A DNA stretch of 64,000 nucleotides from Archangium gephyra (GTDB lineage Bacteria > Myxococcota > Myxococcia > Myxococcales > Myxococcaceae). The notes under the pieces were generated by a model that saw only the letters and a program-made list of their open reading frames with translations, ran no database searches and was not told where the DNA came from. Below are positions 2,889-50,484 of this stretch, in pieces (position 1 is the stretch's first letter; each line of letters begins with the position of its first letter). Position numbers and translations under genes: made by a program. The stretch is from assembly GCF_001027285.1 (NCBI RefSeq), contig NZ_CP011509.1, forward strand, positions 8,270,501 through 8,334,500. Reading direction: 5' to 3'.

Positions 2889-3082
2889 GAAGTCGCCTCT
2901 TATCTCCACAGACCCCCTCCTGCATCTGAAAGAGATCGTCACGGGAGCCAGAAGCCCCCGCTCCCCTGCCCTCGTCCGAGTGGCCGGAGGGCCTTCCGCC
3001 GGGTCCGGATATGGTTGAATGCCGCCGCCGATTCGACATGGCCGGGCCCCTGGGTCCGGCGGGGGAGTCTCCGAGGAACAGC

Positions 3083-6000
3083 ATGGTGAGAACGAACACG
3101 ATCCTGGCGGCCTTGTGCGTCCTGGTGCTGGGTGGGGCCTGCACGTCCCCCACTCCCGAGGAACCGGCCCGGCAGGCGCCGAAGGCCACTCGCCGAGCCC
3201 TGGGAGAAGGTCCCGCAGCCCTCGTGGACGTGGGTGTGAAGGCCGAGCGCGCGCTGGTGCGCTACCCCGAGTTCCCCACGGCCGCGGGCACCACGCTCCT
3301 CTTCGCGGCCAATGAGGACAGCACTGGACCCGAGCTGTGGAGGCTCGATGCCAGGGGCCCCGCGCTGGTGGCCGACATCGTCCCGGGCATTACCGGCTCG
3401 GCGCCCTCCCAGCTCTTCCACTCGCGGGGGCTCACCTGGTTCACCGCCGCGGACGAGGCGCATGGCGTGGAGCTGTGGCGCACGGACGGCACCACGCCGG
3501 GGACGTTCCTGCTCAAGGACATCCTCCCCGGCTCGGGCAGTTCCCGGCCCACGGAGCTCGCCGAGCTCAACGGGTGGATCTTCTTCAGCGCCAATGACGG
3601 CACGTACGGCGCCGAGCCGTGGCGCACCGATGGCACCCCGGAAGGCACGCAGCTCGTCCGGGACATCTCGCTGGGCGCGGGCGGCAGCGAGCCCCAGTCG
3701 TTCACCGAGCTCGGCGGACGGCTCTACTTCCTGGTCAAGGATCCGGGGGGCGCCCGGCAGCTGTGGCGCACCGATGGCACCGCGGCGGGCACCGTCCGGG
3801 TCGGCACGGGCGTGACCGTCACGGCCCCCACGTCGGGGCGCGGGCTCGTCCGCTCCGGCCGGGCGCTCTACTTCGCGGGCAACGAGGGCACGGCGGGCGC
3901 CGAGCTTTGGAAGACGGACGGCACCGAGGCCGGCACCGTCCGCGTCAAGGACATCCTCCCGGGCGCGACGGGCTCCAGCCCCGTGCAGCTCACGGCCTTC
4001 GAGGGCGCGGTGTACTTCGTCGCCACGGACGGCGTGTCGGGACGTGAGCTGTGGAAGACGGATGGCACCGAGGCGGGCACGCAGCGCGTCCTGGAGCTCA
4101 TCTCCGGCAACAACTCCGTGGAGAAGCCCGACTCGCTCGTGGCCGCCAGCTCGCGCCTCTTCTTCATGCTGAGGGACTCGGGCAACACCCAGAGCGCCCT
4201 CTACGCGACGGACGGCACGGCGGCGGGCACCGCGAAGCTGGTGGACTTCAAGGCCGCGGGCGGCAAGGGCCCCCTGCTGATGACGGCCCAGGGGAGCACG
4301 CTCTACTTCACCGGGTACGAGCCGGGCGTGGGCCATGAGCTGTGGACGAGCGACGGCACGCCCGCGGGCTCGCGGCGCATCGGCACCAACGTCTTCTCCG
4401 GCGATCGCCTCGCGGATCCGGCCCCCGAGGCCTTCACCGTCCTGGGGGACACGGTGTACTTCGTGGCGACCGCGCCGGGCACGGGCTACTCCGACGAGAA
4501 CCCGCCGCTGCCCACGCTGTGGAAGTCGAAGGGCGATGTGGCCACCACCGTCCCCGTGGGAGGCGACCTGACGCCGACCCGGGGCTCGAACCCCGCGCCC
4601 TTCGCCGCCTGGGACGGAGCGCTGTACTTCACCACCTTCGAGCAGGAGGAGGCGGCCCGGCTGTGGCGGACGGATGGAACGGTGGCGGGCACCGTGCCCC
4701 TCGTGAACATCGTCCCCGAGGACGCTCCCGAGTTCACCGCGGAGTCGGGCCTGAGCGCCCTGACGCCCCTGAACGGGGCCCTCTACTTCGCGGCCATGCC
4801 CTCGCTCGCGGAGGGCTTCCAGCTCTGGAAGACCAATGGCACCGCCGCGGGCACGGCCCGGGTGACCAGCGCCGTCCGGCTCACCACCGCGGCCGGCACC
4901 CCCATGGAGCTCGTCGCCCACAACGGCTTCCTCTTCTTCGCCGGCCAGGACTCCGCGAACGGCATCGAGCTGTGGAAGAGCGACGGCACGGCGGCGGGCA
5001 CCACCCTGGTCAAGGACATCGCCCCGGGGAGCGGACCGTCCTCGCGCCCCTCGCGCTTCACGCCCATGGGTGACGCGCTCTACTTCATCGCCCGGAACGC
5101 GACCGGCGGCCGCGAGTTGTGGAAGACGACGGATGGCACCGCGGCCAATACCTCGCTGGCGGCGGACGTGCGCGACTTCCTGGACATGAGCGCCGTGATG
5201 AACATCGCCGGAGTGGTGGGCAGCACCCTCTACTTCGTGGCCAACGAGGCCAACACGGGCATCGAGCTGTGGAAGACGGACGGCACCCCGGCGAACACCT
5301 CGCTGGTGAAGGACATCGCCCCGGGCATCCTGGACGCCGGGCCCTCCGCCTTCGCGGTGATCGACGGCATCCTCTACTTCACCGCCAGCGACGGCTTCGG
5401 CCCCGAGCTGTGGCGCACCGATGGCACCGAGAGCGGCACCGTCATGGTCAAGGAGCTCTCGTCGACGGGCACGGGCTCCAATCCCGGCGCCCTCACGGTG
5501 CTCGGCAAGACGCTCTACTTCACCGCGGACGACGGCACCTCCGGCCGCGAGCTGTGGAAGCTCGACACCACCGCCTCCGAGCCCGTCCGCGTCAAGGACA
5601 TCTTCCCGGGCCCCGGCAGCGGCGTTCTCGCCGAGTCGTTCTTCGCGATCCCCACCGACGGTCTGATCCTCTTCGCCGCCAACGATGGCGTGAGCGGCAC
5701 CGAGCTGTGGCGCTCGGATGGCACCGAGGCGGGGACCTTCGTGCTGCACGACATCGCGCCCTGGCAGCTCGGCTCCCACCCCGCGGGTTTCACCCGCTTC
5801 GCGGACACCATCGCCTTCAGCGCGAACGACGGGCGGCGCGGGCGCGAGCCGTGGCTGATGCCCGTGTCGCTGCTCACCAACGGCAAGCCCCCCGACGTCA
5901 CCTGCCCGACCGTGCTTCCCATCGAGGCCCAGCAGTTCCTGGGCGCGCGGGTCGACTTCGAGGAGGCGACGGCCAGCGACGACACCGGCCTCCCTCCCGC

Positions 6001-7174
6001 CCTCTCCTACAGCCGTGTCCCGGGGAGCCTGTTCCCGCTCGGTGACACCGTGGTGCACGTCACCGCGCGCGACACCGCGGGGCTCGTGGCCACGTGCTCC
6101 TTCACCGTGACGGTGGTGGACACCACTCCTCCGGAGCCGGTCTGCCCCGCGGACGCCACGGTGGAGGCCACCACCTCGGGAGGAGCGATCATCACCTACG
6201 CCGCTCCGCAGGCCACCGACCTGGTCACCCGCACCCCTGTCCTCACCGTGAGCCAGGCGTCCGGCACCCTCTTCCCCCAGGGCAACACGACGGTGACGGT
6301 GACGGCCACCGACGCGCGGAAGAACAGCAAGCAGTGCACCTTCACCGTGCGCGTCCAGGACACGACGGCCGCGGTGGTGTCGTGCCCGGCGGACCAGATC
6401 GTCGAGGCCGAGAGCTCCACTGGCGCCCACGTCACCTGGCCGCTCGCCGAGGCCTCGGACGGAGAGATCTCCCGCCCGACCCTCACCTACAGCCACGTCA
6501 ACGGCGACCGCTTCCCGCTCGGCAACACGCCCGTCACCGCCACCGCGAAGGATGGGGCCAACAACACCTCGAGCTGCACCTTCCAGGTCACCGTCCGCGA
6601 CACCCAGGCGCCCTCGCTCCGCTGCCCGCCCACCCAGAGGACCGAGGCCCTGGGCCCCTCGGGTGCGCCCGTGGAGTTCACCGTGAACAACGTGGTGGAC
6701 ACCGTCTCCACCACCGTCGACCTCTCCTTCAACCACGCCTCCGGGGACACCTTCCCGGTCGGAGCGACGCCCGTCCAGGTCCAGGCCCGCGACGCCTCGG
6801 GCAACGTGGCCGAGTGCGTCTTCTCCGTCGAGGTGGTGGACACCCTGCCGCCGCTGCTCACCTGTCCGCAGGACGTGAACATCGCCAAGGGGCCGGTGGC
6901 GGTGCAGCTGCCCCAGCCCTCCAGCACGGACCGGGTGACGGCCTCTCCCGCCATCACCTTCTCCCCGGCCAGCGGCAGTGTGTTCAAGGTGGGTACCACC
7001 CCCGTGGAGGTGACGGCTCAGGACGGAGCGGGCAACTCGGCCCGGTGCACCTTCAACGTGCACATCGAGAAGTCCAGTGGTTGCTCCGCCGCTCCGGGTA
7101 GCATGGGCGCGGCCGGGTGGATGGGACTGGTGTCACTGCTGGCCCTCGCCACCCGCCGCCGGAGCACGCGATGA
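3083..7174 (+). CDS. Giant ELWxxDGT-repeat/HYR-domain surface lipoprotein with MYXO-CTERM tail
   Basis: A 1363-residue secreted protein of unknown function. The ATG at 3083 is chosen over upstream in-frame starts because GAGGA lies 5 bases before it and it begins a lipoprotein signal ([20 protein letters not shown], lipobox LGGA-C). Residues of about 50-930 hold roughly 17 repeats with the core ELW(K/R)TDGTxxGT at about 55-60 residue spacing, probably one or more beta-propellers. Five HYR (hyalin-type, immunoglobulin-like) domains follow at about 935-1320, each starting near a CP dipeptide. The end is [10 protein letters not shown], a hydrophobic stretch, then ATRRRSTR, matching the MYXO-CTERM pattern. 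Its stop overlaps the next start (ATGA). Surface adhesion or binding is a guess from architecture. Confidence 0.88.
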
Positions 7175-9372
7175 CGCACTTCCGTACCTGCAACCTCTGC
7201 GAGGCCATGTGCGGCCTGCGCATCGAGACCTCAGAGGGCCGTGTCACCTCCATCCGGGGGGACGACGCGGATCCGTTCAGCCAGGGCCACATCTGCCCCA
7301 AGGCCGTCGCGCTCCAGGATCTCCACGAGGATCCGGATCGGCTCCGGCAGCCCGTCCGGCGCACGGCCACCGGCTGGCAGCCCATCTCCTGGGAGGAGGC
7401 GCTCGACGAGACGGCGCGGCGGCTGCACGCCATCCAGCGCGAGCACGGCAAGGACGCGGTGGGCGTGTACGTGGGCAACCCCACCGTGCACGACCACGGC
7501 GCGATGATGTTCCTGCCGATGTTCCTCCGGGCGCTGCGCACGCGGAACAAGTTCTCCGCGTCCTCGGTGGATCAGCTCCCCCACCAGCTCGCCGCGTACC
7601 TGATGTTCGGGCACCAGTTCCTCATCCCCATCCCGGACATCGATCACACCCGCTACATGCTCATCCTCGGGGCCAACCCGCTCGCCTCCAACGGCAGCCT
7701 GATGAGCGCGCCGGGCGTGCGCCACCGGCTCAAGGCCATCCAGCAGCGTGGCGGCCGCGTGGTGGTGGTGGATCCCCGGAAGACGGAGACGGCCCACGTC
7801 GCGGACGAGCACGTCTTCATCCGCCCCGGCACCGACGCGCTCTTCCTCTTCGCGCTCCTGCACGTGCTGCTGGAGGAGGCGGGCTCCAAGATGGGGAAGC
7901 TCGCGGAGCTCGTGGACGGCCTGGCCACCGTGCGCGAGCTGGCGCGCGGCTTCACCCCCGAGCGCGCCGAGCCCCACACCGGTGTGCCCGCGGAGACCAC
8001 CCGGCGCATCGCCCGCGAGCTGTCCGCCTCGGAGGCCGCCGTCTGCTACGGCCGCGTGGGCGTCTCCACCCAGGCCTTCGGCGCGATGTGCCAGTGGCTC
8101 ATCAACGTCATCAACATCGTGACGGGCAACCTGGATCGCCCGGGCGGTGCCCTCTTCACGCGCCCCGCCTTCGACATCGTGGGAGGCCCCAAGGCGATGG
8201 CCATGAGCCGTGGCAGCTACGGCCGCTGGCGGAGCCGGGTGCGCGGGCTGCCCGAGTTCTCCGGTGAGCTGCCGGTGGCCGCGCTCGGCGAGGAGGTGCT
8301 CACCGAGGGTCCCGGGCGCATCCGCGCCATGGTCACCTCCGCGGGCAACCCCGTCATGTCCACCCCCAACGGGCGGCAGCTCGACACGGCCTTCGCGTCG
8401 CTCGACTTCATGGTGTGCATCGACCCGTACATCAACGAGACGACGCGGCACGCGCACCTCATCCTGCCGCCCAGCTCCAAGCTGGAGCGCAGCCACTACG
8501 ACCTGGCCTTCCACGCGCTGGCGGTGCGCAACACCGCGAAGTACTCCCCGCCCCTCTTCGAGCCGGGCCCGGACACGCGCCACGACTGGCAGCTCTTCCT
8601 GGAGCTCAAGCACCGGCTGGAGACACTGCGCGGAGAGCCCCGCGTGCGCGGCCAGCTCACCTACCGGACGCTCAAGGCACTCGGGCCGGATGGCCTGCTG
8701 GACCTGGGGCTGCGCGCGGGCCCGTACGGCATGAAGCTCCGCCCGTTCCGCAAGGGGCTGAGCCTGGCGAGCCTCAAGGCCCAGCCACACGGCGTGGACC
8801 TGGGGCCCCTGGCGCCGAGCCTCCCCCAGCGGCTGGCCACGCGTGACCGCCGCATCCAGCTCGCCCCCGAGCCGCTGGTGGCCGACCTCGAGCGGCTGCG
8901 CCAGGCCTTCCCCGAGGGCACGGGCGCCACCGGGGACGGCTCGCTGCTGCTCATCGGACGGCGCCACCTGCGGGACAACAACTCGTGGATGCACAACGTG
9001 CCGCAGCTCGTCAAAGGCAAGCCGAGATGTACGCTGATGGTGCACCCCGAGGATGCCGGGCGGCTGGGTCTACGGGAAGGGGAGCAAGCAGTGATAACCT
9101 CGCGCGTCGGCGAGGTGAGGGCACCGGTGAGCGTGACGGACGAGGTGATGCCGGGCGTGGTGAGCCTGCCGCACGGCTACGGACACGGGCGAGAGGGCGT
9201 GCGGCTCCGGGTGGCCGGGGAGCATGCGGGAGTGAGCATCAATGACCTGACCGACGACCAGGCGTTGGATGCCATCAGTGGCAACGCCGCGTTCAGTGGA
9301 GTCCAGGTCCGCGTCAAGCCGGTAGAATCAGCACGCACGAAAGAACCACAGCAACATTCCGCAACTGGATGA
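7171..9372 (+). CDS. Molybdopterin-dependent oxidoreductase (formate dehydrogenase/BisC-like family)
   Basis: A 733-residue enzyme of the prokaryotic molybdopterin oxidoreductase (DMSO reductase) superfamily; the substrate cannot be told. The N-terminus TCNLCEAMCGLRIETSEGRV with GHICPKA shows the Cys-x2-Cys-x3-Cys...Cys ligands of a [4Fe-4S] cluster. Typical segments follow: GANPLASNGS, VVVDPRKTETA, MWINEx-like region DPYINETTRHAHLILPP, and a C-terminal molydop-binding beta-barrel (MVHPEDAGRLGLREGEQAVI and GVVSLPHGYGHG). No Tat signal is seen, so it is probably cytoplasmic. The ATG at 7171 overlaps the previous stop by 4 bases, suggesting translational coupling. No partner subunit or cofactor-synthesis gene is adjacent. 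Confidence 0.9.
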   Translation: MTHFRTCNLCEAMCGLRIETSEGRVTSIRGDDADPFSQGHICPKAVALQDLHEDPDRLRQPVRRTATGWQPISWEEALDETARRLHAIQREHGKDAVGVYVGNPTVHDHGAMMFLPMFLRALRTRNKFSASSVDQLPHQLAAYLMFGHQFLIPIPDIDHTRYMLILGANPLASNGSLMSAPGVRHRLKAIQQRGGRVVVVDPRKTETAHVADEHVFIRPGTDALFLFALLHVLLEEAGSKMGKLAELVDGLATVRELARGFTPERAEPHTGVPAETTRRIARELSASEAAVCYGRVGVSTQAFGAMCQWLINVINIVTGNLDRPGGALFTRPAFDIVGGPKAMAMSRGSYGRWRSRVRGLPEFSGELPVAALGEEVLTEGPGRIRAMVTSAGNPVMSTPNGRQLDTAFASLDFMVCIDPYINETTRHAHLILPPSSKLERSHYDLAFHALAVRNTAKYSPPLFEPGPDTRHDWQLFLELKHRLETLRGEPRVRGQLTYRTLKALGPDGLLDLGLRAGPYGMKLRPFRKGLSLASLKAQPHGVDLGPLAPSLPQRLATRDRRIQLAPEPLVADLERLRQAFPEGTGATGDGSLLLIGRRHLRDNNSWMHNVPQLVKGKPRCTLMVHPEDAGRLGLREGEQAVITSRVGEVRAPVSVTDEVMPGVVSLPHGYGHGREGVRLRVAGEHAGVSINDLTDDQALDAISGNAAFSGVQVRVKPVESARTKEPQQHSATG

Positions 9373-40762: not shown

Positions 40763-42529
40763 TCATGGCTGGCGGCGGCGGCGCACGGCCACCGCGGCCA
40801 GCAGCAGGGCCCCGGTCCAGAGACCCGCGCCCGGGGCGCTCCCGCACCCGCAGCCCACCGCCAGCACCAGGGGTGGGATGACGTCCGGCGGCACGTCTGG
40901 CAGCACCACGCCTCCGTCACTGCCCTCCACGGGAGCCACGGCCGTGATGCGCACGGGCACGGAGGAGTCGCTGTGCACGCCGAGACTCTCCGTGGAGGCG
41001 CGCAGCTCGTGGGGCCCCGGCGGGAGGGCCTCGGGGAGCACGTACGAGAAGCGGCCGTCGGCTCCCGTGTCGAGCGTCGACAGGAGCACCCCATCCAGGA
41101 AGAGCAGCACCCGCGGGTCTCCCGCACGAGCCTGGCCCTCGATGCGGAGCCCCGGTCCCTCCTGGGTTGCCCCCTCCACCGGCTGCGTCAGCACGGGCGA
41201 GGCGGGCTGACCGAAGGGCATGGAGAGCACCTGCGCGGAGCCGAACGCCGAGCCCCCGTCCACGCTGTCCGGTCCGGCCCCATGCGTGCCGCCGTCCGTC
41301 GCCATCCGCCCCGGCGCTCCGGCGAGCACCGAGCGGGAGCACGCGATGACCTCTCCCTGGAGGAACACCACACCGCCTGCCCCTCCCCCCCCCGGTGCGA
41401 GCGGAAAGACGAACTCGGTGTTGTCTCCGCCCGCGCCGCCCCGCGACTCCACCGCACCACACTCCAGCTCCTGCACCGTGCGGATGGAGATGGCCCCACC
41501 CGCCCCGCCACCGCCCGCGCCGTCGTCCCCAGGCGTCGGTGGCGGAGTCTCACCCGCGGCGCTGAAGCGCCCCACCCCTCGCACCTCCGTGGCACGCAGG
41601 AGCATCAACCCGCCTCCGGCCCCGCCGCTCGAGCCCTCATCGTTGTTGCCCTCCCCCGCTCCACCGCCACCGCCAAAGACGAGGTACTCGTAGGGGAGGT
41701 ACGCCACCGGGGCCCCGCCCATTCCACCCACGTCCCGCTCTTCGTCGGCGGGCGCCGAGCGTCCACCCTGGCCTCCGAGCCCCGCGTGTCCGCCGCCACC
41801 TCCGCCCGAGTTGTGGCAGATGCCACCGCCCGCTCCGTTGGCCAGGTTGCCGCGGCCCGCCGCCGAGCCGAAACGGCCTGCCACCAGGCCCTCGCCCTTG
41901 TAGGCGCCCCCTCCGTCCACCGGCTCATCCAGGCTCGTGCAGTAGTTGAGGTCCCGGTGGGAGAGGAAGGCACCGCCCCGGAAGCCCGCGCCGTCCACGG
42001 AGATGAGCCCATCGTTGCGCAGGCGTCCGGTGACCATCACCGCGAGGATGCCGCCCACGCTCCCATCCCAGGGCGCGGCGCGCAGCGAGGCTCCCGAGCG
42101 CACCTCCAGCTCGGTGTACTCGGGCACCCGTACCACCTGCGACAGGTTGCCCGTACGGGCATACAGCAGGGGCGCGGTGAGGCGAAGCACGCCCGGTGAC
42201 ACCGAGGCCACCCGCGCGTACTCGATGCGGCCCACCGGGCCCCCGGCGAGGGAGACGGGCCTCTGGTTTCCAGAGTCCAGCGCGGCGAGGCCCGTGGACT
42301 GGTGGACGAGCACCAGGTCTCCCGCGGCGAAGCCCGTGGAGTCCGAGACCGACAGCTCACTCGCGCCCGCGGCGGCATTGGCGGTGAGGCGCGCGTAGCG
42401 GTTGACGATGCGGCTCCCGGAGTCCAAGCGCAGGGAGCCGTCCTTCCCCATTCCCAGACCAAAGGTGTCCGGCTCGGCCCGGACGGCACCAGCCGCGAAA
42501 AGCACGAAAAAAAGGAAGAAACCGCGCAT
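40763..42529 (-). CDS. Glycine-rich secreted protein with MYXO-CTERM anchor
   Basis: 588 residues: a signal peptide (MRGFFLFFVLFAAGAVRAEP), a beta-rich N-domain, then a Gly-rich region (about residues 195-410) with segments such as GGGGGGHAGLGGQGGRSAPA and GGGGGAGEGNNDEGSSGGAG. An Ig-like/Bap-type module follows (RVLLFLDGVLLSTLDTGADG...SYVLPEALPPGPHELRASTE). The tail VGCGCGSAPGAG, a hydrophobic helix and AVRRRRQP is a MYXO-CTERM signal. The layout resembles myxobacterial proteins annotated as AgmC-like (adventurous gliding), but that link is only by overall look. Confidence 0.82.
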   Translation of the reverse strand: MRGFFLFFVLFAAGAVRAEPDTFGLGMGKDGSLRLDSGSRIVNRYARLTANAAAGASELSVSDSTGFAAGDLVLVHQSTGLAALDSGNQRPVSLAGGPVGRIEYARVASVSPGVLRLTAPLLYARTGNLSQVVRVPEYTELEVRSGASLRAAPWDGSVGGILAVMVTGRLRNDGLISVDGAGFRGGAFLSHRDLNYCTSLDEPVDGGGAYKGEGLVAGRFGSAAGRGNLANGAGGGICHNSGGGGGGHAGLGGQGGRSAPADEERDVGGMGGAPVAYLPYEYLVFGGGGGAGEGNNDEGSSGGAGGGLMLLRATEVRGVGRFSAAGETPPPTPGDDGAGGGGAGGAISIRTVQELECGAVESRGGAGGDNTEFVFPLAPGGGGAGGVVFLQGEVIACSRSVLAGAPGRMATDGGTHGAGPDSVDGGSAFGSAQVLSMPFGQPASPVLTQPVEGATQEGPGLRIEGQARAGDPRVLLFLDGVLLSTLDTGADGRFSYVLPEALPPGPHELRASTESLGVHSDSSVPVRITAVAPVEGSDGGVVLPDVPPDVIPPLVLAVGCGCGSAPGAGLWTGALLLAAVAVRRRRQP

Positions 42530-43179: not shown

Positions 43180-43201
43180 CCGGACAGGTTAGCCACAAAG
43201 C

Positions 43202-43238
43202 GAGGGGCCCGGAACCGGCCACCGGTCCCGGGCCCCTC
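43202..43238 (-). terminator. Terminator of the FG-GAP lipoprotein gene
   Basis: Arms 43202-43216 and 43224-43238 form a 15-base-pair GC-rich stem with a 7-base loop. The one imperfect pair is G-U in minus-strand RNA. A short T-containing run (GCTTTGT) follows on the minus strand. It sits 22 bases after the stop of the 43261-46674 gene. Confidence 0.6.
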
Positions 43239-43260
43239 GTCACTTCACCCGATTACTGAC

Positions 43261-46200
43261 TCACTTGCAGAGCGGGCTGCCCTCGGTGGTGCCCTCGGGG
43301 CATCCCTCGCCAACGCAGTACTTCACGCCGCTGTCCACCACCGTGCGGCCGGACTGATCGTGCGGCACGACCACGCGGCAGGAAGCCTGGGTGGAGAGGC
43401 CGGCGTCGTTCGTGATGGCGTAGTGGATGGTGTAGACGCGGCCATCCCCCGTGCCCTCGCGCTCCGAGCGGATCTGCACGAACGACTTGCCCACGATGAT
43501 GGACATGTCCTCGCAGGTGCGGCCGTCACCGTTGCCATTGGCATCCTCCACCTCGTCCGAGGTGACGCGGAGCACATGGCCATACGTGTCCAGCGGCAGG
43601 GTGTTGCCGCAGGAGTCCGTCGCGGGCTGGGCGCAGTCGGACAGCGACAGGGTCACGTACTTGTGGTTGGGGGGCCACATCTGCACGCCCTTGTCCGCTC
43701 CCGCCACGGGCGCGCCGTCATTGCAGTAACCGCAGACGTCGTCGCCACCACCACCGCCGTTGTCGTCGTCATCGTCGTCGTGGCCGCCACCGCCACCGCC
43801 GCCGTTGCCGTGACCGCCGCCACAGCCATCACCCTTGAAGTGGGTACCGAACTGACGAGCGGTGAGGTCATTGCGGCCATGGTGCTTCTTCCCACAGCCA
43901 TCGCCATCGTGGTGACCACCACCACCGCCATTGCCGTGGCCATCGTCGTCGTCATCACCGTCGTCGTCATCGCCGTCGTCGCCCTCGTCATCATCGCTGC
44001 CGCCCGTGCTGCCGACGACCACCGAGAAGCCGCACGTGGACACGTTCCCGAAGACGTCCTGGGTGGAGCAGGTGACGGCCGTCTCGCCCACCGGGAAGGT
44101 GGAGCCCGAGGGATGCGAGCAGTTGACGGCCACCTCGCCGCAGTTGTCCGTGGCCGAGGTCGAGTAGTTGACCCGGGTGCCACCCGGGGCGCAGGCCCTG
44201 ATGACGATCGGAGCGGTGGGGCAGCTGATCACCGGCGGCGTGGTATCGCCGGTCACCTTCACGCTGAAGCCGCAGGAGGCGGTGTTGCCAGCGTCATCCT
44301 TGGCGGAGCAGGTGACGGCCGTCTCGCCCACCGGGAAGGTGGAGCCCGAGGCATACGAGCACGACAGGGTGGCCGGACCGCAGGTATCGGTGGCCGAGGC
44401 CGCGAAGGTGGCCGGGGCACCAGCGGGCGAGCACGTCTCGAGCACCTGCGAGGCCGGGCAGCTGACGGTCGGCTTCGTGGTGTCCACCACGGTGACATTG
44501 CCCACGCACTGGTCGCTCGCCGCGCCGTCCGAGGCCGTCAGCGTGACGGGGTGCGTGCCCAGGGGCAGCGAGGTGTAGGGCACCTCGGTGATGGACAGCG
44601 GCGACGGCCCGTTGTCCGGGTCATAGCTGCCGTTGTTCACGCTCGCGCTGCCCGTGCAGTACACGTCGGCGTTGACCGTGACGTCGCGGCACAGCGCCAC
44701 CGGCGGCTTGTTCGTCGGAGTGGTCACCGTGCACGTCAGGTTGCCCGTGGCGGAGGAGCCGTTGTTGTCCTCGCGGCACTCGGAGAGGGTGCCCTTGCCC
44801 GTGCCGTCATCATCCACCACGGCCCACACCTCGGTGGTGCCGAAGGTGGTGGAGGCCACCACGACGGTCGCGATGGCGGAGCCACCCACCGGCAGCGCAT
44901 CCGTCACCGTGGCCACGCCCAGCAGCGTGCCGCCGGACGCGGGGTTGCCCTTGTAGAAGGCCACCTTCACACCCGCCGCCACGGCCGCCTCACCCTGGTT
45001 GCGCACCCGCGCCCCCAGCACCAGCGAGCCGTAGCCATCGCACGACGTCGTCACATCCGACGCCAGCAGGTCCGCGGCCGCGAAGGGGCTCGGCCCGTCA
45101 CCGAAGTAGTTGGCCACGTTGGAGCGGAAGTTGTTGAGCTTGGGGTTGAGCCAGTTGGCCGCCTGCAGCGACGGAATCGTTCCGTCGTTGTTCACGTTCG
45201 TGATGGCGTACGCGTGCTGGTTCCAGATCTTGCGCGTCCCCGCCCACCCTTCCTTCTTGTCGTGCCACACCCGCACGCCGTTGAAGCCCGGCGCTCCGTG
45301 GTTGTTCTCCACCGTCACGATCTCCGCCGCTCCGTCCCCGTCCACGTCCGCCACAATCGGGAACTCGTGCGTGGTGCCGGAGCTGTGCGCCGTCTCCCAG
45401 CGCAGCGCTCCCGTCACTCCGTCGAAAATGCGCAGCTTCAGCTCGTCCGCGTAGATGACCTCCAGCCGCCCGTCATCCTCGAAGTCGAACGTCGTCGACG
45501 TCGTCTTTCCCGAGCTGTACTCCTGGATGGGGAACGTCCACTTCACCGTCCCGTCCGCCCCATACACCGTGTAGTTCCAGTCTCCCGCCAGGCCTATCTC
45601 CAGCTGCCCGTCCCCATCGAAGTCTCCGAGGTTGGGCGCTCCACCGTGGCCCGCCTTGTCGTGCAGCGGCAGGTCCGTGCCCGTCAGGTGCACCTCGCGC
45701 GTCCACAGCAGTGCGCAGTTGTCGTCCAGCAGGCTCACCTGGCCGTGCGTCGCCTCCAGGCCCTTGCCCACCACGACGATCTCCCCGGCCGCGTCCCCGT
45801 CGAAGTTGCCCACGGCCGCGAAGCCGTGCGGAATGTCCGTGTTGGCGCACTTGAGCGAGCCGTCGTGCCGGTAGACGGAGCGGCCGTTGACCACCTCCTG
45901 CTTGCCGTCCTGGTCGAGGTCCACCGCGAAGGACACCGGGCCGGTGAACAGCGCTCCACCCATACCGTCCGAGCCCACCCACTTCAGCGCGCCCGTGTTG
46001 GTGTAGACGCGGTTGCCGTCGAGGATCTCCACGGCGCCATCGCCATCCAGGTCCGCCAGCGAGAGACCGCCCCACTCGTTGTAATCGTTGGCGGCCGGCT
46101 CCGTGCGGAACTTGAAGGTACCGTCGTTCTCGAAGCAGATGATGCCGCGTCCGCTCTCGGGGATGCCGCAGATCTCCACGGCGCCATCGCCGTCGATGTC

Positions 46201-46674
46201 ACCGGCGGCGAGGCTCGCGGCCGGCTTCACGCGGTAGGCCGAGTCCTCCACGGTCCACAGCTCCGCCCCGGTGCTGCCGCTGACAGCGCGGAGCACGCCG
46301 TCGGCATTGCCGTCCTGACCGTTCTTGTAGGCCTCGTTGTAGAAGTCACCGTCGAAGGTGCTGAAGACGATGTCCGGAGTACCATCCCGGTTCACGTCCA
46401 CCACCACCGGCTGCATCATCACCTGCTTGTGCGCGGGGAGGACCGGGCTACCCGTCCAGGCCCACTGCAACTCCGGCTCGAAGTTGGCCGTGAACGGCGG
46501 CTTCACCTCGCACCGCTCCGCCAGCTTCCCTGACTCGCGAGCCTTGGACTGCTCCTTCGACGCCGACGTGCTGCAAGCTCCCCCCGTAGCCAGCACCACC
46601 AGCGCGACGAAGAGCCGCTCACGCCCCAGGTTCCGCCACTCCGAGGGAACCAGCGTGTTGCGTTTGAGTTTCAT
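43261..46674 (-). CDS. Large FG-GAP/CARDB/HYR lipoprotein with Asp/Gly/His-rich insert (paralogue A)
   Basis: 1137 residues from ATG 46674, preceded by GGAGGAGAGAG. The signal FVALVVLATGGACSTSASKE has a lipobox (TGGA-C). About residues 40-560 are FG-GAP/VCBS calcium-binding propeller repeats (DVNRDGTPDIVFSTFDGDFY, DIDGDGAVEICGIPESGRG, DLDGDGAVEILDGNRVYTN, DFDGDGQLEIGLAGDWN). A CARDB domain follows (VLGARVRNQGEAAVAAGVKV), then a PKD-like module and HYR repeats. A low-complexity insert encoded at about 43730-43990 is made of Asp, Gly and His (DDDEGDDGDDDDGDDDDDGH). It is followed by a Cys-containing C-terminal domain also present in its paralogue at 46999. Surface-exposed calcium-binding adhesin is a guess. 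Confidence 0.88.
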   Translation of the reverse strand: MKLKRNTLVPSEWRNLGRERLFVALVVLATGGACSTSASKEQSKARESGKLAERCEVKPPFTANFEPELQWAWTGSPVLPAHKQVMMQPVVVDVNRDGTPDIVFSTFDGDFYNEAYKNGQDGNADGVLRAVSGSTGAELWTVEDSAYRVKPAASLAAGDIDGDGAVEICGIPESGRGIICFENDGTFKFRTEPAANDYNEWGGLSLADLDGDGAVEILDGNRVYTNTGALKWVGSDGMGGALFTGPVSFAVDLDQDGKQEVVNGRSVYRHDGSLKCANTDIPHGFAAVGNFDGDAAGEIVVVGKGLEATHGQVSLLDDNCALLWTREVHLTGTDLPLHDKAGHGGAPNLGDFDGDGQLEIGLAGDWNYTVYGADGTVKWTFPIQEYSSGKTTSTTFDFEDDGRLEVIYADELKLRIFDGVTGALRWETAHSSGTTHEFPIVADVDGDGAAEIVTVENNHGAPGFNGVRVWHDKKEGWAGTRKIWNQHAYAITNVNNDGTIPSLQAANWLNPKLNNFRSNVANYFGDGPSPFAAADLLASDVTTSCDGYGSLVLGARVRNQGEAAVAAGVKVAFYKGNPASGGTLLGVATVTDALPVGGSAIATVVVASTTFGTTEVWAVVDDDGTGKGTLSECREDNNGSSATGNLTCTVTTPTNKPPVALCRDVTVNADVYCTGSASVNNGSYDPDNGPSPLSITEVPYTSLPLGTHPVTLTASDGAASDQCVGNVTVVDTTKPTVSCPASQVLETCSPAGAPATFAASATDTCGPATLSCSYASGSTFPVGETAVTCSAKDDAGNTASCGFSVKVTGDTTPPVISCPTAPIVIRACAPGGTRVNYSTSATDNCGEVAVNCSHPSGSTFPVGETAVTCSTQDVFGNVSTCGFSVVVGSTGGSDDDEGDDGDDDDGDDDDDGHGNGGGGGHHDGDGCGKKHHGRNDLTARQFGTHFKGDGCGGGHGNGGGGGGGHDDDDDDNGGGGGDDVCGYCNDGAPVAGADKGVQMWPPNHKYVTLSLSDCAQPATDSCGNTLPLDTYGHVLRVTSDEVEDANGNGDGRTCEDMSIIVGKSFVQIRSEREGTGDGRVYTIHYAITNDAGLSTQASCRVVVPHDQSGRTVVDSGVKYCVGEGCPEGTTEGSPLCK

Positions 46675-46932
46675 TCGGACTCTCTCCTCCGCTTTCGGGC
46701 ATGACCCGGTTTCAATACCAACCAGACAAGCCCAACCAATGTACCGGTTGCTCTTGATTCTCGGTAAGCAGAAAAGGCTGTGAAGGCAGATGTGTGCCAT
46801 CTGATTGCCAACATCAAATGATGGCAATGACAGACTTGTTCCACCGGGGTGTAGAGGCTGAGCCGTGCTGGCACCGCAGGTGCGAGAAGCCCGCAGAGAG
46901 AACGACGTGACCCGACGCCGTCCAAATGCGAA
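46675..46932. promoter_or_regulatory. Upstream region of paralogue A
   Basis: About 260 bases without a gene between the terminator of paralogue B and the start of paralogue A. It is AT-richer than the coding DNA (for example around 46735-46850) and should hold the paralogue A promoter. No specific promoter motif could be fixed. Confidence 0.4.
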
Positions 46933-46963
46933 GGGCCCGGGACCGATTACCGGTCCCGAGCCC
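46933..46963 (-). terminator. Terminator of paralogue B
   Basis: GGGCCCGGGACC (46933-46944) and GGTCCCGAGCCC (46952-46963) form a 12-base-pair stem with a 7-base loop, the single imperfect pair being a wobble. It lies 35 bases after the stop of the 46999 gene. It closely resembles the terminator at 43202-43238, so the duplication that made the two genes included the terminator. Confidence 0.6.
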
Positions 46964-46998
46964 CACGCGACTTCACCCGAACTTCACCCGATGACGGA

Positions 46999-49900
46999 CT
47001 ACTTGCAGAGCGCGCTGCCCTCGGTGGTCCCGGCCGGGCAGCCCTCGCCGACGCAGAACTTCACACCGCTGTCCACCGCGCCGCGGCCGGACTGGTCGTG
47101 CGGCACGTAGACGCGGCAGCTGCTCTGGGTGGAGACGCCGGCGTCGTTCGTGACGACGTAATGCAGGGTGTAGACGCGGCCATCACCCGTGCCCTCGCGC
47201 TCGGAGCGGAGCTTCACGGACGTGGGGCTCAGGATGACCATGTCATCGCAGGTCCGGCCGTCACCGTTGCCGTTGTCGTCCTCCACCTCGTCCGAGCTGA
47301 CGCGGAGGATGCGGCCGTACTTCTCCAGGGGGAGGGGCTTGCCGCAGGCATCCGTCGCGGGCGCCGCGCACTCGGAGAGGAGCAGGGGCGCGTACTCGTA
47401 CTTGTGGTTGGGAGACCAGAGCTCCGCACCCAGCTCCGCGCCCGGAGTCGGCGGAGTGGAGGAACTGCCGCCGCTCACCTGGACGGAGAAGCCGCACGAG
47501 GCCGTGTTGCCGAACGCATCCGTGGCCGAGCAGCTCACCGGGGTGGTGCCCACCGGGAACTCGGAGCCGGAGGCGTGCGAGCAGGTGACAGCCACCTCGC
47601 CGCAGTTGTCCGTGGCCGAGACCGAGAAGCTGGCCGTGGAGCCACCCGTGCTGCACGTGTTCACGACCACCGGGGCGGTGGGGCAGCTGATCACCGGCGG
47701 CGTGGTGTCACCGGTCACCTTCACGCTGAAGCCGCAGGAGGCCGTGTTGCCAGCGTCATCCTTGGCGGAGCAGGTAACGGCCGTCTCGCCCACCGGGAAG
47801 GTGGAGCCCGAGGCATACGAGCACGACAGGGTGGCCGGACCGCAGGTATCCGTGGCCGAGGCCGCGAAGGTGGCCGGGGCACCAGCGGGCGAGCACGTCT
47901 CGAGCACCTGCGAGGCCGGGCAGCTGACGGTGGGCTTCGAGTTGTCCACCACGGTGACATGGCCCACGCACTGGTCGCTCGCCTCACCATCCGAGGCCGT
48001 CAGCGTGACGGGGTGCGTGCCCAGGGGCAGCGAGGTGTAGGGCACCTCGGTGATGGACAGCGGCGACGGCCCGTTGTCCGGGTCATAGCTGCCGTTGTTC
48101 ACGCTCGCGCTGCCCGTGCAGTATACGTCGGCATTGACCGTGACATCGCGGCACAGCGCCACCGGCGGCTTGTTGGCCGGAGTCGTCGTGCACGTCAGGT
48201 TGCCCGTGGCGGAAGAGCCGTTGTTGTCCTCGCGGCACTCGGAAGTGGTGCCCTTGCCCGTGCCGTCATCGTCCACCACGGCCCACACCTCGGTGGTGCC
48301 GAAGGTGGTGGAGGCCACCACGACGGTCGCGATGGCGGAGCCACCCACCGGCAGCGCATCCGTCACCGTGGCCACGCCCAGCAGCGTGCCACCGGACGCG
48401 GGGTTGCCCTTGTAGAAGGCCACCTTCACGCCCGCCGCCACGGCCGCCTCACCCTGGTTTCGCACCCGCGCCCCCAGCACCAGCGAGCCGTAGCCGTCGC
48501 ACGACGTCGTCACGTCGGAGGCGATGAGATCCGGAGCCACGAAGGGGCTGGGGCCCTCACCGAAGTAGTTGGCCACGTTGGAGCGGAAGTTGTTGAGCTT
48601 GGGGTTGAGCCAGTTGGTCGCGGGCTGCGACGGAATCGTTCCGTCGTTGTTCACGTTCGTGATGCTGTACGCGTGCTGGTTCCAGATCTTGCGCGTCCCC
48701 GCCCACCCTTCCTTCTTGTCGTGCCACACACGCACGCCATTGAAACCCGGCGCTCCGTGGTTGTTCTCCACCGTCACGATCTCCGCCGCTCCGTCCCCGT
48801 CCACGTCCGCCACAATGGGGAACTCGTGCGTGGTGCCGGAGCTGTGCGCCGTCTCCCAGCGCAGCACTCCCGTCACCCCGTCGAAGATGCGCAGCTTCAG
48901 CTCGTCCGCGTAGATGACCTCCAGCCGCCCGTCATCCTCGAAGTCGAACGTCGTCGACGTCGTCTTTCCCGAGCTGTACTCCTGGATGGGGAACGTCCAC
49001 TTCACCGTCCCGTCCGCCCCATACACCGTGTAGTTCCAGTCTCCCGCCAGGCCTATCTCCAGCTGCCCGTCCCCATCGAAGTCTCCGAGGTTGGGCGCTC
49101 CGCCGTGGCCCGCCTTGTCATGCAGCGGCAGGTCCGTGCCCGTCAGGTGCACCTCGCGCGTCCACAGCAGCGCGCAGTTGTCGTCCAGCAGGCTCACCTG
49201 GCCGTGCGTCGCCTCCAGGCCCTTGCCCACCACGACAATCTCCCCGGCCGCGTCCCCGTCGAAGTTGCCCACGGCGGCGAAGCCGTGCGGAATCTCCGTG
49301 TTGGCGCACTTGAGCGAGCCGTCGTGCCGGTAGACGGAGCGGCCATTGACCACCTCCTGCTTGCCGTCCTGGTCGAGGTCCACCGCGAAGGACACCGGGC
49401 CGGTGAACAGCGCTCCACCCATGCCGTCCGAGCCCACCCACTTCAGGGCGCCCGTGTTGGTGTAGACGCGGTTGCCGTCGAGGATCTCCACGGCACCATC
49501 GCCATCCAGGTCCGCCAGCGAGGGGCCGCCCCACTCGTTGTAGTCATTGGCGTCGGGGGACGAGCGGAACTTGAAGGTGCCGTCGTTCTCGAAGCAGATG
49601 ATGCCGCGGCCACTCTCGGGGATGCCGCAGATCTCCACGGCGCCGTCGCCGTCGATGTCACCGGCGGCGAGGCTCGCGGCCGGCTTCACGCGATGGGCCG
49701 GGTTCTCGACCGTCCACAGCTCCGCCCCGGTGCTGCCGCTGACAGCGCGGAGCACGCCGTTGGAGTTGCCGTCGTAACCGTTCTGGTAGGAGGTGTTGTA
49801 GAAGTCGCCGTCGAAGGTGCTGAAGACGATGTCCGGAGTGCCGTCCCGGTTCACGTCCACCACCACCGGCTGCATCATCACCTGCTTGTGCGTGGGGAGG

Positions 49901-50133
49901 ACCGGGCTGCCCGTCCAGGCCCACTGCAACTCCGGCTCGAAGTTGGCCGTGAACGGCGGCTTCACCTCACACCGCTCCGCCAGGTTCCCCGAGCCGCGAG
50001 CGGCGGGCTGCTGCTGCGAGTCCGTGGTGTTGCACGCGCTCCCCGTGGCCAGCGTCACCAACGCCACGAAGAACCGCCCACGACCCTGCCCCCTCCACCG
50101 CGCGAAACCCTGCGTGCCGCGCTTGAGCTTCAT
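46999..50133 (-). CDS. Large FG-GAP/CARDB/HYR lipoprotein (paralogue B)
   Basis: 1044 residues from ATG 50133; lipoprotein signal FVALVTLATGSACNTTDSQQ (lipobox TGSA-C). Domain order is the same as in paralogue A: FG-GAP propeller, CARDB, PKD-like and HYR repeats. It lacks the Asp/Gly/His-rich insert and has a different last HYR domain (PVVVNTCSTGGSTASFSVSA). From SGKLAERCEVKPP-like sequence through the HYR start, the two proteins and their DNA are almost identical, showing a recent tandem duplication or gene conversion. The C-terminal domain, ending VGEGCPAGTTEGSALCK, is similar but more diverged. Confidence 0.88.
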   Translation of the reverse strand: MKLKRGTQGFARWRGQGRGRFFVALVTLATGSACNTTDSQQQPAARGSGNLAERCEVKPPFTANFEPELQWAWTGSPVLPTHKQVMMQPVVVDVNRDGTPDIVFSTFDGDFYNTSYQNGYDGNSNGVLRAVSGSTGAELWTVENPAHRVKPAASLAAGDIDGDGAVEICGIPESGRGIICFENDGTFKFRSSPDANDYNEWGGPSLADLDGDGAVEILDGNRVYTNTGALKWVGSDGMGGALFTGPVSFAVDLDQDGKQEVVNGRSVYRHDGSLKCANTEIPHGFAAVGNFDGDAAGEIVVVGKGLEATHGQVSLLDDNCALLWTREVHLTGTDLPLHDKAGHGGAPNLGDFDGDGQLEIGLAGDWNYTVYGADGTVKWTFPIQEYSSGKTTSTTFDFEDDGRLEVIYADELKLRIFDGVTGVLRWETAHSSGTTHEFPIVADVDGDGAAEIVTVENNHGAPGFNGVRVWHDKKEGWAGTRKIWNQHAYSITNVNNDGTIPSQPATNWLNPKLNNFRSNVANYFGEGPSPFVAPDLIASDVTTSCDGYGSLVLGARVRNQGEAAVAAGVKVAFYKGNPASGGTLLGVATVTDALPVGGSAIATVVVASTTFGTTEVWAVVDDDGTGKGTTSECREDNNGSSATGNLTCTTTPANKPPVALCRDVTVNADVYCTGSASVNNGSYDPDNGPSPLSITEVPYTSLPLGTHPVTLTASDGEASDQCVGHVTVVDNSKPTVSCPASQVLETCSPAGAPATFAASATDTCGPATLSCSYASGSTFPVGETAVTCSAKDDAGNTASCGFSVKVTGDTTPPVISCPTAPVVVNTCSTGGSTASFSVSATDNCGEVAVTCSHASGSEFPVGTTPVSCSATDAFGNTASCGFSVQVSGGSSSTPPTPGAELGAELWSPNHKYEYAPLLLSECAAPATDACGKPLPLEKYGRILRVSSDEVEDDNGNGDGRTCDDMVILSPTSVKLRSEREGTGDGRVYTLHYVVTNDAGVSTQSSCRVYVPHDQSGRGAVDSGVKFCVGEGCPAGTTEGSALCK

Positions 50134-50411
50134 GTCTGTCTCTCTCCTTCTGCGTCCGGGACCGGCCTGGTTCACAGCGCCATCAAGACGACTTGCACCG
50201 TGCGATGGCGGCTGGATCTCCAGGCTGGATCCCGAAAGAACCGTGAACACCGACACACGCGGAATATCACGTTATGGGCATTCATGTCCGTCAGAATTGT
50301 CCAACGAGAATGGAGAAACATGCTCTGGAGGAGCGCTTCGTCTGACAGCGGCGCAGAAAGGCAGACATTCATCGAGACAACAATTCTCAAACGCCAAGAA
50401 GACGAGACTCA

Positions 50412-50455
50412 CCGGAAAACAAAAAGCCCCAGGTTCCGGAGAACCTGAGGCCTTT
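50412..50455 (-). terminator. Rho-independent terminator of the glycine cleavage operon
   Basis: On the minus strand, AAAGGCCTCAGGTTC, a TCCG loop and GAACCTGGGGCTTTTT form a 15-base-pair stem (one wobble) running into a T-run. It starts about 30 bases after the gcvP stop. The roughly 280 bases between it and the paralogue B start (50134-50411) hold no gene and probably contain that gene's promoter. Confidence 0.85.
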
Positions 50456-50484
50456 GTCTGGGTGAAGCCTGGGGAGTCGAAGAG

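Follow-up and report, generated by a model that had tools for sequence, protein, structure and literature searches.

Two neighbouring genes in the genome of Archangium gephyra encode large modular proteins whose middle parts are nearly identical and whose ends have diverged, which raises the question of how old the pair is and by what process its core has stayed alike. From the sequence alone, the pair had been read as a recent duplication with ongoing gene conversion in the core and diversification of the ends in the manner of surface antigens. We analyzed the window that carries the pair, a stretch of 64,000 nucleotides in a genome (G000) assembled as one contig of 12,489,432 bases, and searched six Archangium genomes, G000 included, for its counterparts.

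Organization of the tandem locus

Both genes lie on the minus strand, as do all the parts of the locus described below. The upstream copy, gene B (46999..50133), encodes 1044 amino acids and the downstream copy, gene A (43261..46674), 1137. B is composed, in this order, of a lipoprotein-like signal, a propeller head, an Ig-like/CARDB-like region, two HYR domains (HYR1 and HYR2) and a C-terminal domain, and A follows the same order with a His/Gly/Asp-rich linker (43702..44013, 104 amino acids here) added before its C-terminal domain. The head occupies codons 56–520 in both, at 48574..49968 in B, where structure search, profile and predicted fold define it as Bap1-type, and at 45115..46509 in A, where the same assignment follows from the codon alignment and a row in the head profile alignment. 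A domain search confirmed FG-GAP repeats and two HYR domains. The CARDB domain named in the sequence-only reading received no Pfam call, its sole support being a match to the solved structure 2kut (E 3e-6), and we refer to this segment, to which Pfam gave no name, as CARDB-like. The C-terminal domain of B (47002..47436) carries PNHK...DEVED...GDGR motifs, and that of A (43264..43701) is of an A type that is orthologous across species. A Pfam search with this domain gave no match and NCBIfam named no C-terminal domain in the whole proteins, which makes it a candidate unnamed domain. Weaker matches to it were seen elsewhere in Archangium genomes, and a contig from Bacteroidetes (L050) holds a stretch that resembles it.

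The signal ends of A and B differ, as had been noted, and both reach a cysteine after small residues, an arrangement that by eye fits a lipobox; Cys34 is invariant across 12 sequences. Judged from these residues, A and B are probable lipid-anchored lipoproteins, and a surface location is likely. GC-rich hairpin-like repeats follow A (43197..43252) and B (46925..46980) and are 82% alike over 56 bases, but a terminator scan called neither hairpin. The 5' region of B (50134..50484) adjoins a gcvP-like gene, and that of A (46675..46998) includes the hairpin after B and is conserved among A copies. A glycine-cleavage cluster, in which gcvP was named by eye, stands just upstream of B, and A is followed by a DUF4291 gene and an AgmC-like gene (40763-42529) that belongs to the adventurous gliding motility family NF047640 of NCBIfam (E 1e-116).

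Divergence along the two genes

Codon alignment of A and B confirmed a near-identical core between diverged ends. In blocks of 40 codons, nucleotide identity was 73% over codons 1–40, 90–93% over codons 41–200 and 95–100% over codons 201–801, with a single dip to 87.5% at codons 521–560, and it fell to 66–84% from there to the end of the genes. Of the fourfold-degenerate sites, 36 of 429 differed in codons 56–806, compared with 31 of 119 across the three segments at the ends (Fisher p 1.8e-6), an excess of synonymous differences at the ends that rules out uniform divergence. The longest identical run in G000 measured 215 nt, against a mean of 62 in shuffled alignments, and none of 2000 shuffles produced one as long. 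The identity blocks, the fourfold contrast and this run all show that divergence along the pair is not uniform, and together they delimit a homogenized stretch of codons 56–806 in B (47716..49968) and 56–807 in A (44254..46509). The adjoining HYR2 domains (47473..47715 in B and 44011..44253 in A, assigned by Pfam, fourfold sites and tree) are not homogenized. Comparable runs were found wherever the pair occurs: the four genomes gave 215, 117, 495 and 772 nt, compared with shuffle means of 49–62, with no site shuffle among 2000 reaching the observed length in any of them and codon-shuffle p-values of at most 0.0005.

Age of the duplication and conversion of the core

The tandem pair is present in four of the six Archangium genomes (G000, G001, G004 and G005), in the order B then A and within the same gene neighbourhood in each. 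Because G000 is a single contig and the pair recurs in three further assemblies, an assembly artefact is unlikely. At the locus, G002 carries a lone gene with a B-type tail and lacks A. G003 was left out of the test: in this draft the contig breaks off within the B head, and no tail of either type appeared above 39% identity. The gcvP-like gene is within a few hundred bases of B except in G004, where some 12 kb lie between them (L103, L052). The 5' region of the single G002 gene (L054, approximately 7766-8200) matches that of G005B near gcvP and that of G005A nearer the start codon, a mixture that may be a trace of loss or recombination.

In the head tree (codons 56–520, 1338 nt, 14 sequences), A and B of the same genome paired in all four genomes with bootstrap values of 99–100, and forcing an A clade and a B clade cost 971 log-likelihood units and was rejected by the AU test. 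Paralogues within one genome were accordingly closer to each other than to their orthologues in the core trees of all four genomes. The same was seen at fourfold sites of these codons, where 19 of 237 differed between A and B of G000, compared with 56 of 222 between the B copies of G000 and G001 (p 6e-7). The C-terminal tree (429 nt, without G005A, which has no such domain) gave the opposite arrangement: the A-type domains of G000, G001 and G004 formed a clade with bootstrap values of 100 and 94, and forced within-genome pairing cost 112 log-likelihood units and was rejected. B copies fell into no supported clade in this tree, and the constraint to two clades was borderline (p-AU 0.055). The segments between and around these parts were mixed. 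CARDB-like and HYR1 segments showed genome-wise pairing in part, with G005B placed beside G002B in the CARDB-like tree and strict pairing rejected there (p-AU 0.006), and the N-terminal and HYR2 trees rejected both simple constraints. Only its position, linker and 5' region place G005A in the A type, and its HYR2 did not group with A.

Since A copies group across species in the C-terminus and pair with B within genomes in the core, the core must have been converted repeatedly. In their unconverted C-terminal parts, the copies of G000, G001 and G004 show that the duplication predates the split of these species. The gene conversion proposed for the core is strongly supported by core trees, fourfold sites and identical tracts, and the recent duplication proposed with it is contradicted by the cross-species grouping of A-type C-termini, the likeness of A 5' regions and the shared neighbourhood. 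The duplication is old and its core has been repeatedly converted; core identity alone would have mislabelled an old pair as a recent one.

The 5' regions tell a similar story in part. Between G000 and G001, the A regions share 83% of their bases over 337 nt, and within G000 the regions of A and B do not match each other at E 1e-4. In G004 and G005, the A and B 5' regions share 71–72% over 173–240 nt, and the separation of A and B promoters is therefore incomplete in some lineages.

The diverged ends and the linker of A

Pairwise dN/dS estimates were obtained for ten pairs, the C-terminal value of G005A and G005B being omitted because the columns are not homologous. In the end segments they ranged from 0.42 to 0.78 between A and B and from 0.24 to 0.75 between orthologues, apart from one HYR2 value of 0.99, and a single 40-codon block of the G000 pair had dN above dS (0.19 against 0.15). 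None of the ten pairs showed the excess of amino-acid change in the variable part that antigenic variation would produce. With dN/dS below 1 and hypervariability confined to the A linker, the antigen-like diversification suggested for the ends is not supported, and the divergence of the ends appears to be that of old paralogues, left untouched by conversion or maintained by selection.

The A linker measures 104, 199, 191 and 241 residues in the four genomes and is dominated by Gly, Asp and His. It is present in all four A copies and absent from the remaining rows among 30 open reading frame rows with the head motif, two of which represent the same gene; some fetched homologues failed the head motif. 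From its composition (Gly, Asp and His, with Cys), it looks able to act as a putative metal binder. G005A terminates in the linker, and no C-terminal-domain motif appeared in the three frames read downstream. Enclosed in the linker of G000A and G001A is a brief conserved segment without repeats, around FGTHFKGDGCGGG.

The head resembles the propeller of Bap1

A phmmer search of B against all solved structures retrieved Bap1 of Vibrio cholerae (6mlt, E 7e-48), matched in the head over two stretches, 63–325 and 358–518, and no other structure matched the head at E 0.01. A profile built from seven heads gave Bap1 at E 1.6e-65, followed at a distance by cartilage acidic protein 1 (E 3e-9) and then by rhamnogalacturonan lyases and integrins, and a Nannocystis homologue searched independently matched Bap1 alone (E 6e-22). 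The head was also folded on its own, from seven sequences, giving a predicted model with a mean pLDDT of 71 and a pTM of 0.79; a full-length model of B was poor (mean pLDDT 42) and was set aside. Foldseek ranked Bap1 first for the head model (E 3e-25), with a superposition that was loose overall (rmsd 12.8), and VIA-align placed the model on Bap1 with a Z of 38.5 and an rmsd of 2.6 over 418 residues at 31% identity, the next row being a designed propeller (Z 31.6). By sequence match and predicted fold, the head is a Bap1-type propeller. It lacks the large insertion that the Bap1 propeller contains: 32 residues lie between the matched parts in the B head and 177 in Bap1, leaving approximately 145 missing, which we take to be the prism. 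Because this insertion is absent, the B head is not an orthologue of Bap1 in architecture. Propellers bind many kinds of ligand; by analogy with Bap1, the head may grip the cell's own exopolysaccharide matrix.

Dispersed copies and exchange of heads

At a cut-off of 1e-80, B had a match in 47 of 96 genomes from the family, spread over 8 of its 26 genera, and some of the copies lie away from the tandem locus. One dispersed paralogue in Archangium, p3, has kept its neighbours in all five relatives examined. The terminal domain of p3 is of the p3 type throughout, G005 and G002 included, and forcing these two to group with their tandem copies cost 111 log-likelihood units; the p3 heads of the same two genomes sit with their own tandem copies, and forcing the p3 heads together cost 100 units. 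Between head and terminal domain, the CARDB-like and PKD-like parts reject neither history. A second paralogue, p4, shared its head with the tandem copies of G005 and G002 in codons 201–350 only (p-AU 6e-4), the remaining thirds giving p-AU values of 0.21 and 0.6 and the whole head 0.23. Its neighbours are matched in G002, G003 and G004, partly matched in G005 and unmatched in G001. We claim head exchange for p3 and not for p4, because support for the latter is limited to one third of the head. In G000, p4 (L057, 2734-5514) combines a Bap1-type head with what appears by eye to be a Kelch-like second propeller.

A copy from another genus, G042b, also shows disagreement between its parts. Placing its head with p3-type heads cost 210 units (p-AU 1e-4), and in the tail analysis 11 p3-type tails grouped with a support of 79; either its head was converted or its tail was captured. 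Control analyses placed four groups of dispersed copies from G031–G033 by orthology in the head and did not reject a constraint joining the seven core p3-type heads. Head exchange between distant loci occurs, only sometimes.

Proposed explanation and alternatives

The explanation that we favour, and hold to be rather probable, is that A and B are old tandem lipoproteins with heads that are converted and grip the matrix and with tails that serve different partners. A and B are old tandem duplicates of a modular protein, probably a surface lipoprotein, their heads overwritten by each other repeatedly, and independently in several Archangium lineages, through homologous gene conversion, which for a long shared head needs no special mechanism. 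The heads thus evolve as a single sequence, and separate histories are kept by the C-terminal domains and, in G000 and G001 at least, by the 5' regions. In the lineage of G005 and G002, conversion has also joined the tandem locus with a paralogue at a distant chromosomal site. The head would bind the cell's own exopolysaccharide matrix, as the Bap1 and RbmC propeller does in Vibrio, and the tails may fit each protein to its own second partner or to use at a different time: HYR domains and a C-terminal domain in B, likewise with the His/Gly/Asp-rich linker in A, and a short HYR-like or Kelch-like end in dispersed copies.

Several other explanations were weighed against this one. Separate tandem duplications in each species, instead of an old pair with conversion, would fit the head trees taken by themselves, and passages of Wang and Chen (PMC6053082) give them as an alternative for tandem genes. 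The A-type C-termini, however, group across species (100 and 94) and reject within-genome pairing by 112 log units; the likeness of the A 5' regions in G000 and G001 (83% over 337 nt), the linker shared by all A copies and the constant gene order argue the same way. Independent duplication, largely refuted for G000, G001 and G004 by a case that does not extend to G005, is in our view very unlikely. Strong codon constraint could likewise lower synonymous divergence without conversion, and the core is indeed the part best conserved between species at the protein level, but in the same codons the orthologues of G000 and G001 have 56 fourfold differences in 222 sites where the paralogues have 19 in 237, which refutes this account and leaves it a negligible probability. 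Antigen-like variation, in which variable ends would evade phage, predators or kin-recognition partners, would suit the likely surface location, the range of the A linker from 104 to 241 residues and the loss of the C-terminal domain from G005A. Against it stand end dN/dS values below 1, A C-termini that are 90% identical between G000 and G001, conversion of the constant rather than the variable part, and the lack of silent cassettes among the homologue matches found in Archangium genomes, and we give it only a slight chance.

A more serious competitor, to which we assign close to an even chance, holds that the heads are alike merely from recombination, with tracts that start anywhere and stop at the edges of homology, namely the diverged promoters on one side and the A linker on the other, and with no selection needed. 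A study of duplicate tuf genes in Salmonella describes conversion that can start at any point and runs until the gene bounds (PMC5485169). A and B are no less than 94% identical in the head middle (codons 241–300 and 361–450) of every genome with the pair, the outer edges of homogenization shift from one genome to another, and the HYR2 that escapes homogenization adjoins the linker, all of which fit recombination of this kind. It accounts less well for the sharp step in G000 at codon 806/807, where identity drops from 96% to 78% between adjacent 30-codon windows, and for the p3 copies of G005 and G002, which switch history within the CARDB-like/PKD-like part, where no linker is present. Under our preferred explanation, in which selection may keep the heads alike, the concerted head and the separately evolving tails would mark, respectively, the part that has to match something shared, probably the matrix, and the parts that do different jobs. 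A bolder version, tentative and rather unlikely, is that the head is a self-matrix receptor cassette of several loci, which ectopic conversion would match to the exopolysaccharide of the lineage; each locus would then keep its promoter and tail, and the whole set could shift ligand specificity with the polysaccharide.

Relation to known systems

The literature search, which was limited to open-licence PMC papers, returned no title on these proteins, and the nearest comparison is with the biofilm matrix adhesins of Vibrio cholerae. As passages of PMC10102183 describe, Bap1 and RbmC have propellers that are approximately 70% identical and bind Vibrio polysaccharide (VPS) directly, and they share this propeller while their other domains differ. 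A and B resemble them in having a homologous propeller head and in being two paralogues with a common head and different other domains, the arrangement likened there to a 'double-sided tape'. They differ in being probable lipoproteins (by the lipobox seen by eye), whereas the Vibrio proteins are secreted in soluble form, in missing some 145 Bap1 residues between the matched parts, and in their HYR and other tails, tandem genes and head conversion. If the head does bind the cell's own matrix, the modular plan known from the Vibrio biofilm adhesins would be at work in myxobacteria too, carried there by probable lipoproteins.

Concerted evolution by gene conversion is reported for 26 prokaryotic genes in passages of PMC6053082, and those genes, like tuf (PMC5485169), share with A and B the closer relationship of paralogues than of orthologues in several lineages. 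In A and B, by contrast, the head domain alone is concerted and the tails keep their old orthology, and the genes tabulated in the part of PMC6053082 drawn on here are metabolic and complex-forming, whereas A and B are lipoprotein adhesins on our reading. The same source mentions short-term concerted evolution of outer-membrane protein genes, a further case of surface protein genes that undergo gene conversion; A and B differ from these in having no diversity of the immune-evasion kind and in that their constant part is converted.

Two further features of the surroundings were observed. The AgmC-like gene close downstream of the pair is present in G001 too, and the window also holds a large HYR protein (3011-7174) of 1387 amino acids with five HYR stretches.
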